Assembly (NCBI RefSeq): GCF_009707365.1
Contig: NZ_CP046122.1
Location: 3,100,001 to 3,164,000 of the forward strand
Reading direction: 5' to 3'
Source of the DNA: Microlunatus sp. Gsoil 973
Lineage (GTDB): Bacteria > Actinomycetota > Actinomycetes > Propionibacteriales > Propionibacteriaceae
Length of the DNA: 64,000 nt
Positions within the stretch are counted from its first letter, which is position 1, and each line of letters begins with the position of its first letter. Below are positions 37,014 to 42,475 of this stretch, in pieces. The position numbers and the translations under genes are program-made. The notes under the pieces are model-generated. The model was not told where the DNA came from, did no database searches, and saw only the letters and a program-made list of their open reading frames with translations.

Positions 37014-37898
37014 CTAGGAGCTGTTCGATTCGGGCGAGCGACGGAGCCGTTCGACGACAGCTACAGCGTCCCGGCTGGGTCGTACGGTGTGCACCCGGAC
37101 CGCCCAGAAGTCGTGCAGCGCCGCCCAGCCGGTGAGCACCGCGGTGGCGTCGTCGCGGCCAAGCGGCGGACGAGGGCTGCCGTCGGGATCGGCGAGCAGG
37201 GTTCCGAGGAAGCGCTTCCGGGAGGCGGCGAAGAGCAACGGCCGGCCGAGTTCGTGCAGCACGTCGAGGTGTTGCAGCAGCTCCCAGTTGTGGTCGCCGG
37301 TCTTGGCGAAACCGAATCCGGGATCCAGCACCAACCGGTCGGAGCGGATGCCGGCAGCCAGGGCCCGGTCGGCGAGCCTGGCCAGTTCCTCGCGTACCTC
37401 GCTGACCACGTTGCGGTAGTTGGCCTTGGACTGCATGTCGACCGAGTGCCCGCGCCAGTGCATCTGGACGTAGGCACACCCGAGCTCGGCCGCGACCGGG
37501 ATCATTGCCGGATCGGCCTGGCCGCCCGAGACGTCGTTGATCAGCCGAGCCCCGGCCTGGTACGCCTGCTGCGCGGTGCGTGCCCGCATGGTGTCCACGC
37601 TGATCGCGGTCCGGCCCTCGCGGATCGCCGGTTCATCGGCCAGGTCGCGGATGACCGGGATCGTTCGGCGGAGTTCCTCCTCCGGATCGACCCGGGACGC
37701 GCCCGGGCGGGTCGACTCCCCGCCGATGTCGAGGATGTCAGCACCCTCGGCGATCAGTTCCTGTCCGTGGCGTACAGCTGCGTCGTGGTCGAAGAACGAG
37801 CCGCCGTCGGAGAACGAATCGGGCGTCACGTTGATCACGCCCATCACCAGCGTTCGTCCGGGTGCCGGCAGCCCGGCAACCACCGGCAGTTCAGTCAC
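37014..37898 (-). CDS. folP: Dihydropteroate synthase
   Basis: 294 residues. TIM barrel motifs: VMGVINVTPDSFSDGG (18-33), ILDIGGESTRPGA (55-67), the DTMR strand near 100, LINDVSGG near 119, LVLDPGFGFAKTGDHN near 192 and LFAASRKRFLG near 222. It joins p-aminobenzoate to the pterin; sulfonamides inhibit it. GTG 37898. Although it is in the folate operon, the upstream folE is 1.13 kb away across a repeat array. Confidence 0.96.
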   Translation of the reverse strand: MTELPVVAGLPAPGRTLVMGVINVTPDSFSDGGSFFDHDAAVRHGQELIAEGADILDIGGESTRPGASRVDPEEELRRTIPVIRDLADEPAIREGRTAISVDTMRARTAQQAYQAGARLINDVSGGQADPAMIPVAAELGCAYVQMHWRGHSVDMQSKANYRNVVSEVREELARLADRALAAGIRSDRLVLDPGFGFAKTGDHNWELLQHLDVLHELGRPLLFAASRKRFLGTLLADPDGSPRPPLGRDDATAVLTGWAALHDFWAVRVHTVRPSRDAVAVVERLRRSPESNSS

Positions 37899-38099
37899 GC
37901 CGTCACCCTAGTGCCCCGTCGCCCGCTCTGCCCGCGGGTGTTTGCGCGCCGACCCGGCGTCCCATGGCGCGGCATGCCCGGCCGCGCGTGCCCTGGCCGG
38001 GCATGGTCGAGCCGGCTCTGGCTCGTTGCCGCACCAGTTACTCGATCCCGCGACCTCTACTCGGCCCCGCACCCGCTGCCGTCCCCCACTGGCCTGTTG

Positions 38100-38199
38100 C
38101 CGCACCGGTTCCTCGATCCCGCGACCTTTACTCGGCCCCGCACCCGCTGCAGCTGTAGCGAGACCGAGTACGTGGTGCGCGATCGAGGAACTGGTGCGG
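38100..38199. repeat. Palindrome copy 1
   Basis: 100 nt. Comparing the left arm 38100-38149 with the reverse complement of 38150-38199, 38 of 50 positions agree, with an 11-base exact block GTTCCTCGATC and the block TACTCGG. Confidence 0.85.
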
Positions 38200-38212
38200 G
38201 GCCGAGGAACTG

Positions 38213-38290
38213 GTGCGGGCGAACTGCCCGCGGCCCAGGTGCGGGCGAACTGCCCGCGGCCCAGGTGCGGGCGAACTGCCCGCGGCCCAC
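38213..38290. repeat. 26-bp direct repeat, three copies
   Basis: The unit starts GTGCGGGCGAACTG and is present at 38213, 38239 and 38265 with virtually no change. It lies inside the first linker of the palindrome array and is found only there, suggesting recent slippage expansion. Confidence 0.85.
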
Positions 38291-38344
38291 GAACCGGGGT
38301 GCCCGCGGCCGCCGTGGACGCGGTCCTGCCCCTCTGGCTCGTTG

Positions 38345-38444
38345 CCGCACCATTTGCTCGATCCCGCGACCTCTACTCGGCTCCACACCCGCTGCAGCTG
38401 TAGCGAGACCGAGTACGTGGTGCGCGATCGAGGAACTGGTGCGG
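38345..38444. repeat. Palindrome copy 2
   Basis: 100 nt, same arms as copy 1 with CATTTGCTCGATC in the left arm; right arm ends GAGGAACTGGTGCGG. Confidence 0.85.
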
Positions 38445-38589
38445 CGCCGAGGAACTGGTGCGGGCCAACTGCTGCGCGACCGAGGAACTGGTGTGGCGCT
38501 GAGGAAGTGGTGCGGGCGAACTGCTGCGCGGCCCACGAACAGGGTGCCCGCGGCCCCGTGGACGCGGCCCTGCCCCCTCTGGCTCGTTG

Positions 38590-38689
38590 TCGCACCAGTT
38601 GCTCGATCCCGCAACCTTTACTCGGCCGCGCACCCGCTGCAGCTGTAGCGAGAACGAGTACGTGGTGCGCGATCGAGGAACTGGTGCGG
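38590..38689. repeat. Palindrome copy 3
   Basis: 100 nt; starts CGCACCAGTTGCTCGATC after a T and ends GAACTGGTGCGG. Copies 3 and 4 are nearly identical to each other, including most of their linkers. Confidence 0.85.
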
Positions 38690-38783
38690 CGCCGAACAAG
38701 TGGTGCGGACCAACTGCTGCGCGGCCCACGAACCAGGGTGCCCGCGGCCCCGTGGACGCGGCCCTGCCCCCTCTGGCTCGTTG

Positions 38784-38883
38784 TCGCACCAGTTGCTCGA
38801 TCCCGCAACCTTTACTCGGCCGCGCACCCGCTGCAGCTGTAGCGAGACCGAGTACGTGGTGCGCGATCGAGGAACTGGTGCGG
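38784..38883. repeat. Palindrome copy 4
   Basis: 100 nt, nearly identical to copy 3; the preceding linker is 51 nt shorter than the other two. Confidence 0.85.
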
Positions 38884-39031
38884 CGCCGAACAAGTGGTGC
38901 GGACCAACTGCTGCGCGATCGAGCAAGTAGTGCGGTGCGGACCAACTGCTGCGCGATCGAGCAAGTGATGCGGCGCCGAACAAGTGGTGCGGGCGAAATG
39001 CTGCGCGCCGGGCGGCGTACAGACCGACAGG

Positions 39032-39667
39032 TCAGGAGGTGATCAGGCTCATCGCCTCGGCGCGGGTGACCGGGTCGCGCATACCGCCACGGACGGCGCT
39101 GGTGACGGTCTTCGACCCTGGCTTCTTCACACCGCGCATGATCATGCACTGATGCTCGCATTCCAGTACGACGATCACCCCGCGCGGACTGAGGGTCGCG
39201 ACCAGTTCCTCGGCGATCTGCGTGGTCAGCCGCTCCTGTACCTGCGGCCGCTTGGCATACACGTCGACCAACCGAGCCAGCTTGGACAAACCGGTGATCC
39301 GGCCGTGCTCGCCGGGGATGTAGCCAACGTGGGCGACGCCGGTGAACGGCAGCAGGTGGTGTTCGCAAATGCTCCACACCTCGATGTCCTTGACCAGCAC
39401 CAGCTCGTCGTGGCCGAGGTCGAAGGTGGTGGCAAGCACATCGGAAGGTTCCTGGTGCAGTCCGGCCAGGATCTCGGCGTACGCCTTGGCGACCCGTTCC
39501 GGTGTCTTCCGCAGCCCGTCGCGGTCCGGGTCCTCGCCGATGCCGATCAGCAGCTCGCGGACCGCCCGAACGATCCGATCATGATCGAACTTGTTCGAGT
39601 TGCCCGGTCCCAGCAGGGCGCCGTTGGAGGACGGCTCATGGCCGTTGCCCCGCGCGTCGGTGACCAC
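39032..39667 (-). CDS. folE: GTP cyclohydrolase I
   Basis: 211 residues. Family motifs are [34 protein letters not shown], the zinc cysteine in [20 protein letters not shown], and the second zinc cysteine in [10 protein letters not shown] near residue 180. It opens the GTP ring to form dihydroneopterin triphosphate, the first step of folate synthesis. The GTG 39667 start lies 5 nt after the ftsH stop, so they are coupled. The first 25 residues are not conserved. The downstream array separates it from folP. Confidence 0.95.
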
Positions 39668-39672
39668 GGCCG

Positions 39673-42006
39673 CTAGTTGCCGTTGCTGTTCGGGCCGTCC
39701 TGCGGCCGGCGGAACTGATCGTCGGGATCCTGCTGCTGACCCGGATACTGCTGGGTCTGCGGCCCCGACTGCTGACCGTACGGCCCGTACTGACCCTGAC
39801 CGTCCTGACCCTGACCGTGCTGACCCTGACCCTGCTGGCCCTGACCGTACTGGCCCTGGCCGTACTGATCCTGGCCGTACTGGTCCTGGTAGCCGTACGG
39901 GCCCTGGCCGTAGCCGCCGTGGCTGTGATCGCCCGGGCGGACCGGATCGCCGGACGGACCGGCCGGAATGTCCGGGCCGGGCTGTCCCGGGCCGGGATGA
40001 TGCCCCGGACCACCCCCGGGCAGGACCGGTGGGTTGGGCTGGTGACCCGGCGGTACGCCGTCGACTCCCGGTCCGACGGGGATGCCGACCTGCTGACCGT
40101 TCGGGTTCGGCGGCGGCTTCACCGGCGGCAGGTTGGACGGCTTGCGGGTCGGTGAACCGGTCCACGGCGGCCGCGCGGGACGTACCTTCAGCGGCTTGAA
40201 GACCTCGGCCACCTCACGCTTGTCCAGCGTCTCTCGCTCGAACAGGGCCCGAACCAGGCTGTCCAGCACCTCGCGATTCTCGTGCAGGATGTCGAAGGCC
40301 TCCTGGTGGGCGTTGTTGATCAACAGCGCCACCTCGGAGTCGACCACACCGGCAACCTCTTCGGAGTAGTCGCGACCGTGGCCGTAGTCCCGACCAAGGA
40401 ACGGCTCGGAGTTGTCGGAGCCGTACTTGACCGCACCCAAACGCTCGGTCATGCCGTACTGGGTGACCATGGCGCGGGCCAGGTTGGAAGCCTTCTCGAT
40501 GTCGTTGGACGCGCCGGTCGTCGGGTTGTGCAGGACGAGCTCTTCGGCAGCCCGGCCGCCCATCATGTAGGCCAGCTGGTCGAGCAGTTCGGCGCGGGAG
40601 TTGGAGTACTTGTCCTGTTCCGGCAACACCATGGTGTAGCCGAGCGCCCGGCCACGCGGCAGGATCGTGACCTTCTGCACCGGGTCGGTGCCCGGCAGCG
40701 CGGCAGCCACCAGGGCGTGCCCGCCCTCGTGGTAGGCGGTGATCAGCTTCTCCTTCTCGTCCATCAACCGGCTGCGCTTCTGCGGGCCGGCGACGACGCG
40801 GTCGATCGCCTCGTCGAGGAAGCCGTTGGTGATCACCGAGACGTTGGAACGGGCGGTCAGCAGGGCGGCCTCGTTGAGGACGTTGGCCAGGTCCGCACCG
40901 GTGAATCCGGGCGTCCGGCGAGCGACCGTCGCCAGATCGACAGTGGGGTCGATCGGCTTGCCCTGGGCGTGCACCCGCAGGATCTCGTAGCGGCCCTTGA
41001 GGTCTGGTGCCTCGACCGAGATCTGCCGGTCAAACCGGCCCGGGCGCAGCAGGGCGGGGTCAAGCACATCGGGACGGTTGGTCGCGGCGATCAGGATCAC
41101 TCCGCCGCGAACGTCGAAGCCATCCATCTCGACCAGCAACTGGTTCAGGGTCTGCTCACGCTCGTCGTGGCCGCCGCCCATTCCGGCGCCACGGTGTCGG
41201 CCGACCGCGTCGATCTCGTCGATGAAGACGATGGCCGGCGCGTTCTCCTTGGCCTGCTCGAACAGGTCGCGCACCCGGGAGGCACCGACACCGACGAACA
41301 TCTCGACGAAGTCGGAGCCCGAGATCGAGTAGAACGGCACCCCGGCCTCGCCGGCGACGGCGCGGGCCAGCAACGTCTTACCGGTACCGGGCGGCCCGTA
41401 GAGCAGAACGCCCTTGGGGATCTTCGCTCCGACCGCCTGGAACTTGGCGGGTTCGGCAAGGAACTCCTTGATCTCCTCCAGTTCCTCGATCGCCTCGTCC
41501 ACACCCGCGACGTCACCGAAGGTCGTCTTCGGGGTGTCCTTGTTGGCAATCTTGGCGCGGGACTTGCCGAACTGCATGACCCGGCCGCCGCCGCCCTGGA
41601 CGGAGTTGATGAAGAAGAAGAACAGCACGCCAAGTAACAGGAACGGAATCAGCGTTCCCAACATGGTGGAGAAGAAGCCAGGTGTCGGGTTCTTGCCGAT
41701 CCAGCTGTCCAGCGTGTTGTTGTCGATCCGCTTCTGGAGATCGGAGGCCAGTTGGGTTCCCTGGTCGCCCACCCAGACCGCTTCGATCTTCTCGCCGTTC
41801 TCCTTGGTGATCTGGATCTTCTGGTCACCGTCGATCAGCTGCACCTCTTTGAGGTGCTCGGTGCCCTGGATCACGGAGATCGCCTGGGAGGTCGGGACCT
41901 GCCTGTAGCCGTCGCTGCGGTTCACCAGTTCGACGATCACCGCGATCGCGACGATGGCGATGACGAACCACAGCAAGGGGCCCCGAAAGATGCGCTTGAC
42001 GTTCAT
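39673..42006 (-). CDS. ftsH: ATP-dependent zinc metalloprotease FtsH
   Basis: 777 residues. Two membrane helices (about 10-27 and 117-135) flank a short external domain; the AAA+ module has Walker A GPPGTGKT (204-211) and the SRH region; the metalloprotease has HEGGH (426-430). A C-terminal tail from about 630 is Pro/Gly-rich and ends in tandem GYGQ/GQ repeats rich in Gln, Tyr and Gly, which is absent from model FtsH proteins. It degrades membrane and regulatory proteins. ATG 42006; precedes folE by a few nucleotides. Confidence 0.97.
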
Positions 42007-42299: not shown

Positions 42300-42475
42300 A
42301 CCACGTGTTACCGAATCAACGGGCCCAAGTGCCTTGAGGCGCGGAACGGCGCCACGTGGTACGAAATCAACGCTTCCGCCGCGGAGCCCCGAAACGGTGC
42401 CACGTGTTACGCAATCGACGACCCCAAGCGCCTCGAGCCCCGAAACGGCGCCCCGTGTTACCAAGTCGACCACCG
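42300..42475. repeat. Four-copy 51/48-bp imperfect tandem repeat between hpt and ftsH
   Basis: Copies start at 42301, 42352, 42400 and 42451. Each opens with CCACGTGTTACGxAATC-like DNA (the last has CCCCGTG) and continues with CCCAAGCGCCTCGAGCCCC and GAAACGGCG. The periods of 51, 48 and 51 are multiples of three, but frames in both strands are equally open and none resembles a protein. The CGTG..CGC.ATCGA core is similar to the right arm of the 38-kb palindromes. Confidence 0.8.

Follow-up and report, generated by a model that had tools for sequence, protein, structure and literature searches.

Arrays known as BIMEs, in which alternately oriented palindromic units are joined by linkers, occur in enterobacteria. 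In the REP literature, every RAYT gene is said to lie between two inverted REPs (PMC2817692, which also names the BIMEs), and REPINs are described as hairpin-forming doublets (PMC3116915). The winged helix of AbiEi-family proteins is described as binding inverted repeats, four sites at once in one studied case (PMC7319586).

Here we analyzed the window, a stretch of 64,000 nucleotides from the genome of Microlunatus sp. Gsoil 973, in which an array of palindromes lies between folE and folP. The organization here is similar to that of REP/RAYT systems (REPtrons) and REPINs, with many extragenic palindromes, hairpins formed by inverted pairs, more than one family in a genome, each with a gene between two copies, and mosaic arrays (PMC2817692, PMC3116915, PMC3733652). 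However, the partner here combines an AbiEi-type region with a nuclease-like C-terminus, whereas theirs is an HUH tyrosine transposase, and each arm here contains a 19-20-nt tandem module without a conserved GTAG at the ends. The system was not placed in REP/RAYT because the organization agrees but the enzyme does not. BIMEs likewise have alternately oriented palindromic units and linkers, whereas the units here are 19 nt long and number up to 12 per arm in the host-genome stretches examined; for a sequence relation to REPs, the GTAG check was the comparison made here. With the AbiEi antitoxins of type IV toxin-antitoxin systems, the partner has in common an N-terminal winged helix and upstream inverted repeats, but it has an extra C-terminal nuclease-like region, and its repeats lie on both sides and throughout the genome. 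It also resembles DUF559/REase_MTES_1575/Vsr-like nucleases and EDxHD homing endonucleases, enzymes akin to Vsr, in the matches of its distant homologues and in an E..D..ExDG..K pattern; unlike them, the close family stays below the Pfam cut-offs and its genes are bracketed by palindromes. No intron, intein or defined homing site was seen at the partner genes. Among the matches listed in a literature search, which excluded most subscription journals and bioRxiv preprints, no paper linked DUF559 or AbiEi proteins with dispersed palindromes. On balance, we think it probable that the array belongs, as a single locus, to a family of extragenic palindromes spread through the genome and tied to a resident gene of AbiEi-type and nuclease-like character, similar to REP/RAYT in plan and built around an unrelated enzyme.

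Results

An array of inverted 19-nt units between folE and folP

Four palindromes of 100 nt were found at 38100, 38345, 38590 and 38784, with spacings of 245, 245 and 194 nt, as a sequence-only reading of this DNA had claimed, and re-computed arm pairing (38, 35, 37 and 38 of 50 positions in the four copies) reproduced its value of 38 for copy 1. At least 30 paired positions were present in only one of the 62,751 other 100-nt frames of the window, and that frame had 38. The linkers, earlier noted as repeated, were duplicated together with the palindrome copies (Table 1). The copies are indeed placed as exact 100-nt frames, but this length is not the natural unit, as the array is built of 19-nt units. 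The plus unit of the array family reads CGCACCA..TT..TCG.... and is arranged head to tail up to a 22-nt palindromic centre, CGCACC.GCTGCAGC.GGTGCG, beyond which the units are inverted; each copy has about two plus units, the centre, and three or more minus units. The last plus start and the first minus start are 45 nt apart, or 45 nt plus a multiple of 19 because some unit is too diverged to be called.

Table 1 Coordinates of the array, its parts and the genes discussed with it (window positions unless a genome is named)
Feature	Position	Strand	Remark
Whole palindrome array	38018..39010	no strand	between folE and folP
Partial leading copy, left arm only	38018..38079	+	left arm of copy 1 repeated at 71 nt
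Element 1	38101..38217	no strand	two + units, 22-nt centre at 38139, three - units
Element 2	38346..38462	no strand	two + units, centre at 38384, three - units
Element 3	38591..38707	no strand	two + units, centre at 38629, three - units
Element 4	38785..38901	no strand	two + units, centre at 38823, three - units
Further degenerate - units, 38-nt period	38902..39010	-	array end 21 nt from folE stop (39032, minus strand)
Linker with three exact 26-nt tandem copies	38212..38289	no strand	
folE, GTP cyclohydrolase I, start approximate	39032..39667	-	upstream neighbour of array
folP, dihydropteroate synthase	37014..37898	-	downstream neighbour of array
Second own-genome partner gene (L033)	G000 3464726-3465604		bracketed by arrays of the window's family

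The proposal that the array splits two neighbouring genes was borne out, as five other lineages have only about 30-75 nt between the aligned ends of folE and folP, and the gap here is thus expanded. In M. endophyticus, a nuclease-like gene (L041 3763-4686) lies in the folE-folP gap at the position of the window's array. Both of its flanks have a common repeat (score 37), which by eye is built on CTCGCTTCC; no palindrome in these flanks reached the scan threshold. With a gene and its own repeats in M. endophyticus and an array of a different family here, the folE-folP site has therefore been occupied by two such systems in related lineages. The array here could conceivably derive from a lost gene.

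Elsewhere in the window, a separate tandem repeat with a 51-nt period (CCACGTGTTACGCAATCAACG..., 42301-42461) lies in the ftsH-hpt gap and may represent another repeat family. The 3' part of ftsH (39785-39912) contains 15-nt tandem repeats that encode a Gly/Gln/Tyr-rich tail.

Related elements in the host genome and in relatives

A search of the host genome (G000, one contig of 4.91 Mb) for further copies found about 50 clusters. A 148-nt query gave 91 BLAST matches and the profile at least 213 matches, both strands counted; copy numbers from the profile searches are lower bounds because scoring was confined to the best-ranked 150 or 41 candidates in each genome. Results showed 82 elements in 52 clusters, located in 48 stretches of the genome, and overlap between a cluster and a predicted gene never exceeded 60 nt (genes were called with a codon-usage script written for the analysis, no annotation pipeline being used). 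The flanking gene pair was convergent for 16 clusters, tandem for 28 and divergent for 8; the background of 308 adjacent gene pairs in those stretches comprised 55 convergent, 195 tandem and 58 divergent pairs. At least 49 clusters are of the array type, as three of the 52 were single hairpins of a second family. This family, recovered with a profile built from relatives, comprises at least 28 single 74-bp hairpins in the host genome, mostly with another centre, of the GTGTACAC type. Arrays and single hairpins alike are palindromes in many copies, nearly all of them extragenic, a property by which a REPtron is recognized.

In 39 relatives, BLAST with the 148-nt query gave only two matches of 29-30 nt. 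The profile search, extended to related Propionibacteriaceae as had been suggested, detected hairpins with the same frame (CGCACC, about 19 nt, CGCACC, centre, then mirrored) in members of the same genus and in one other genus of the family. Each genome had its own version of the filler sequence, similar among its hairpins and unlike that of other genomes. One genome (G158) had one palindrome at no fewer than seven places, plus one 29-nt match; two of the seven bracketed a nuclease-like gene, and the other five had no homologue within 1.5 kb. In a genome of another family (G060), a palindrome occurred at 28 or more places, two of them bracketing the gene (best 40 of 58 candidates scored), and at no place in a congener.

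Partner genes encode proteins with an AbiEi-type N-terminus and a nuclease-like C-terminus

In both G000 and G006, one gene was found enclosed by a pair of hairpins separated by 1.1 kb, and its product of about 300 aa has an AbiEi-type winged helix at the N-terminus and a PD-(D/E)XK/Vsr-like resemblance at the C-terminus. Such genes lay between two repeat copies at 4662282 and 3464726 of G000, 1317710 of G006, 1105872 and 3768301 of G003, and 341972 and 2471907 of G127. A third, distant homologue in the host genome (L275, 2262950-2263651) had a third repeat type, GAGGGGTCA..., on both flanks (score 52.5).

Pfam AbiEi_4 was matched by 29 of 38 members at E ≤ 0.01, and PADLOC AbiEi models matched all four proteins (best E per protein 9.4e-18 to 7.7e-15), spanning roughly the N-terminal 200 residues. 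Matches of the close family to DUF559 were weak (best E 0.017, below the Pfam cut-off; 5 of 38 members at E ≤ 1). Three of eight distant homologues scanned passed the DUF559 or REase_MTES_1575 cut-offs, namely L284 (MTES_1575 42.1 bits, cut-off 38.2; DUF559 29.2, cut-off 20.6), L270 and L283 (both DUF559); L276, L280 and L286 matched neither. Across 75 full-length homologues, D147, E191, S192, R195, Q209, E234, G237, K240, Y241 and R261 were invariant, and D223 and D236 were conserved at 99%. The conserved acidic and lysine residues of the PD-(D/E)XK/DUF559 type are present (E191, D223, E234, D236, K240) and may be catalytic. A single-sequence AlphaFold2 model was unusable (pLDDT 37.6). No NCBIfam model matched any of the 38 members, and no homologue of the protein was found in viral contigs or in a PDB sequence search. 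The order was represented by 147 genomes, of which 117 contained the protein family at E ≤ 1e-20. Neighbouring genes, inspected by eye at L210 and L178 only, were rpoC-like upstream and enzyme- or transporter-like downstream, with no AbiEii-like gene noticed.

In four of six genomes, dispersed palindromes match the flanks of individual genes

Flanks of 300 nt were compared at each locus against a threshold of 22, the 99th percentile of 300 cross-locus pairs (mean 10.9, maximum 23.5). A common repeat on both flanks was found in 57 of 79 close homologues, comprising 12 of 14 in genomes first selected for hairpins and 45 of 65 in protein-match loci. With a further 16 of 20, the protein-picked loci totalled 61 of 85 (40 loci were the next rows of the ranked protein-match list, and the 20 later loci were chosen to reach other families). 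By family, the protein-picked loci with shared flanks were 43 of 54 (f1), 9 of 21 (f2), 7 of 7 (f3) and 2 of 3 (f4); the 24 loci below the threshold were most frequent in f2. Distant homologues had a shared flank repeat in 6 of 14 cases. Three of 96 loci (L278, L285, L297), with no tblastn hit at 1e-4 or no 150-nt flanks, were dropped from the homologue flank test. As a control, 52 genes of the window not adjoining the array were compared in this way, and none had shared flanks. In a stringent control of 356 genes from hairpin-selected stretches of G000 and G006, four passed, and the set's three nuclease-type genes were all among these four. At the third-family loci (L370-L376), the gene-side palindromes were often shorter (26-66 nt) and near perfect, on both sides in all seven.

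Dispersed palindromes were then scored against the flanks of homologues in the same genome. In G000, all 26 single hairpins were assigned to gene 1 and all 47 array clusters to gene 2 (the second partner gene in Table 1), including the window array, which scored 49.5 against the flanks of gene 2 and 10.5 and 10.0 against the other two own-genome genes. The array count is 47 of 47 because three array rows assigned to gene 1 (L022, L025, L168) are single-type hairpins. All 23 palindromes of G006 were assigned (20 and 3 to two genes), as were all five of G003 (4 and 1 to two genes) and both of G127 (one per gene). The test failed in two of six genomes: in G012 (M. endophyticus), 11 of 12 dispersed hairpins matched no gene flank tested, and in G019, none of five palindromes was matched. 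The cross-genome null had a mean of 10.9, 95% at 18.5, 99% at 33.5 and a maximum of 39.5, being broad because neighbouring species have the CGCACC frame in common; within genomes, runner-up genes scored at most 14.5 in the rows listed. Palindromes flanking a gene or fragment at L210, L033, L178, L252, L248 and L227 were left out of this test, and L139 was added by hand.

In M. endophyticus, none of the genes tested was an intact cognate of the dispersed hairpins. A C-terminal piece of a decayed nuclease-like gene (L274 1349-1668) was located there, with a hairpin of the dispersed type 78 nt away. The dispersed palindromes of G019 (L254-L258) have a 20-nt frame with CGCACC and match no nuclease-like gene flank tested.

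Beside close homologues, 73 palindromes of at least 44 nt were collected and examined at lags of 14-28, and shuffling supported a direct repeat within the palindrome in 51 of them (p ≤ 0.1). Of these 51, 39 had their best lag at 19 nt and a further 10 at 20 nt (together 49). The 19-20-nt period is common although most palindrome sequences vary between loci.

Alternative explanations for the palindromes

One alternative is that the palindromes serve the host as bidirectional terminators or mRNA 3'-end hairpins and that nuclease-like genes are bracketed by chance. Single hairpins argue for it by their location, since in G000 the nearby 3' gene ends were 7-55 nt away in 31 of 35 measurements and many hairpins lay between convergent genes (10 convergent, 15 tandem, 2 divergent and 1 inside a predicted ORF among 28 in G000; 13 convergent, 9 tandem and 3 divergent among 25 in G006, two overlapping a predicted ORF; the three within ORFs were kept in the counts). 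Their arms also covary, with 84.4% paired versus 76.6% when shuffled, a value reached by none of 500 shuffles, and double changes occurred in 20 of 35 pairs. RNA folding, as had been suggested for the region, gave stable structures, with z of -2.8 to -9.3 for four array pieces; three single hairpins had z of -5.4 to -14.5. However, in arrays, arm-to-arm covariation was absent (73.0% paired versus 74.6% shuffled, 997 of 1000 shuffles at least as high; 59 oriented elements, 56 distinct, after 21 of the 82 proved unorientable and 2 single-unit elements were left out), and the array units retain the motif rather than the pairing. A hairpin directly after stops with covarying arms, as expected of a terminator, was found only among the single hairpins. 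For 66 single hairpins from three genomes, the 25 nt outward of the hairpin were checked on all 132 sides, and none contained TTTT. Further, 8 of the 52 clusters lie between divergent genes, the filler is homogenized per genome and differs between species, and the flanks of nuclease-like genes have one family in common whereas those of ordinary genes do not. The role in ending transcription that had been envisaged is thus plausible for the single hairpins, located after stops with covarying arms, but fits poorly with the lack of TTTT and with the arrays. As an account of the whole system we regard termination as unlikely. The preference of the palindromes for 3' ends could reflect tolerance, selection for termination, or both.

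An RNA-hairpin reading of the arrays was tried and rejected. Active avoidance of pairing was indicated by the raw set (73.8% paired versus 77.6% shuffled, all 500 shuffles at least as high; centre mismatch in 39 of 42), much of the signal having come from mixing two orientations of an asymmetric ancestor; in oriented arrays, covariation is absent and avoidance at most weak. The strand of the mismatch was independent of gene direction (among tandem contexts, 10 agreed and 23 were opposite). Rfam gave only two chance microRNA matches, far below the gathering score.

A second alternative, which we rate slightly lower than termination, takes the AbiEi-like protein as a type IV antitoxin-like regulator and the palindromes as operators at its own promoter and in a regulon. 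AbiEi-family proteins autoregulate through inverted repeats according to PMC7319586 and PMC11062541. The PADLOC matches and the palindromes upstream of the partner gene agree with this. Against it, copies also lie downstream of the gene, many dispersed copies are at 3' ends rather than promoters, and the near-invariant nuclease-like residues would be unnecessary for an operator system.

A classic REP/REPIN system moved by a RAYT (HUH/Y1 transposase) would explain extragenic palindromes in inverted doublets and a gene bracketed as PMC2817692 describes for RAYTs. It is nevertheless highly improbable, as Y1_Tnp (PF01797) was absent from all 21 genomes (5 of 14 control genomes match) and, of the aligned elements, a single core among 44 and a single base element among 24 had GTAG or CTAC in the first or last 8 nt. 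The earlier statement that REP does not fit consequently holds for the RAYT-linked form and not for the organization, which is REP-like. Least credible of all is an assembly or amplification artefact of one locus, for which the sequence-only reading had required that further copies and related elements be absent: other copies exist, as this genome, assembled into one contig, has 49 clusters of the array type and 28 single hairpins, all at different loci, and relatives have the same frame.

Discussion

Of the roles offered earlier for the array, a self-propagating palindromic element is the one we favour, with about 50 clusters and a cognate gene between two copies. The pairing of repeats with genes and their dispersal are, as read from the sequences, very likely to be real, and we put the chance that the protein drives propagation at about even. 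At the sequence level, the partnership of repeat and enzyme is seen in several families of one bacterial order.

Under the favoured reading of a palindrome family tied to its resident gene, the winged helix would bind a short motif (CGCACC here) repeated every 19-20 bp with inverted symmetry. Several subunits would assemble on one palindrome, each arm of which offers at least two motifs spaced by 19-20 bp, and the C-terminal domain would nick or cut there. Repair or copying to or from other palindromes would then spread and homogenize the family. In the window's species, units would subsequently have expanded in 19-nt tandem steps, and whole elements would have been duplicated with their linkers to give the folE-folP array. 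Cutting and repair copying would account for the likeness within genomes, the dispersal, and the expansion of units by slippage.

It is conceivable, though we hold the chance to be a little short of even, that these elements form an unrecognized selfish class in which an AbiEi-nuclease reads inverted motifs of 19-20 bp and copies its own palindromes by cutting and repair. Such a class would have evolved independently of REP/RAYT, would extend over four sampled families of one actinobacterial order, and would involve co-evolution of motif and protein, with several non-cross-reacting pairs per genome.

For the family, these results mean that a common group of proteins gains a concrete DNA partner, different from gene to gene, and that dozens of natural protein-motif pairs become available for learning a recognition code. 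The apparently independent pairing of palindrome and enzyme can be compared with REP/RAYT, and it offers a direct test case of whether a nuclease, not a transposase, can spread short bacterial repeats.
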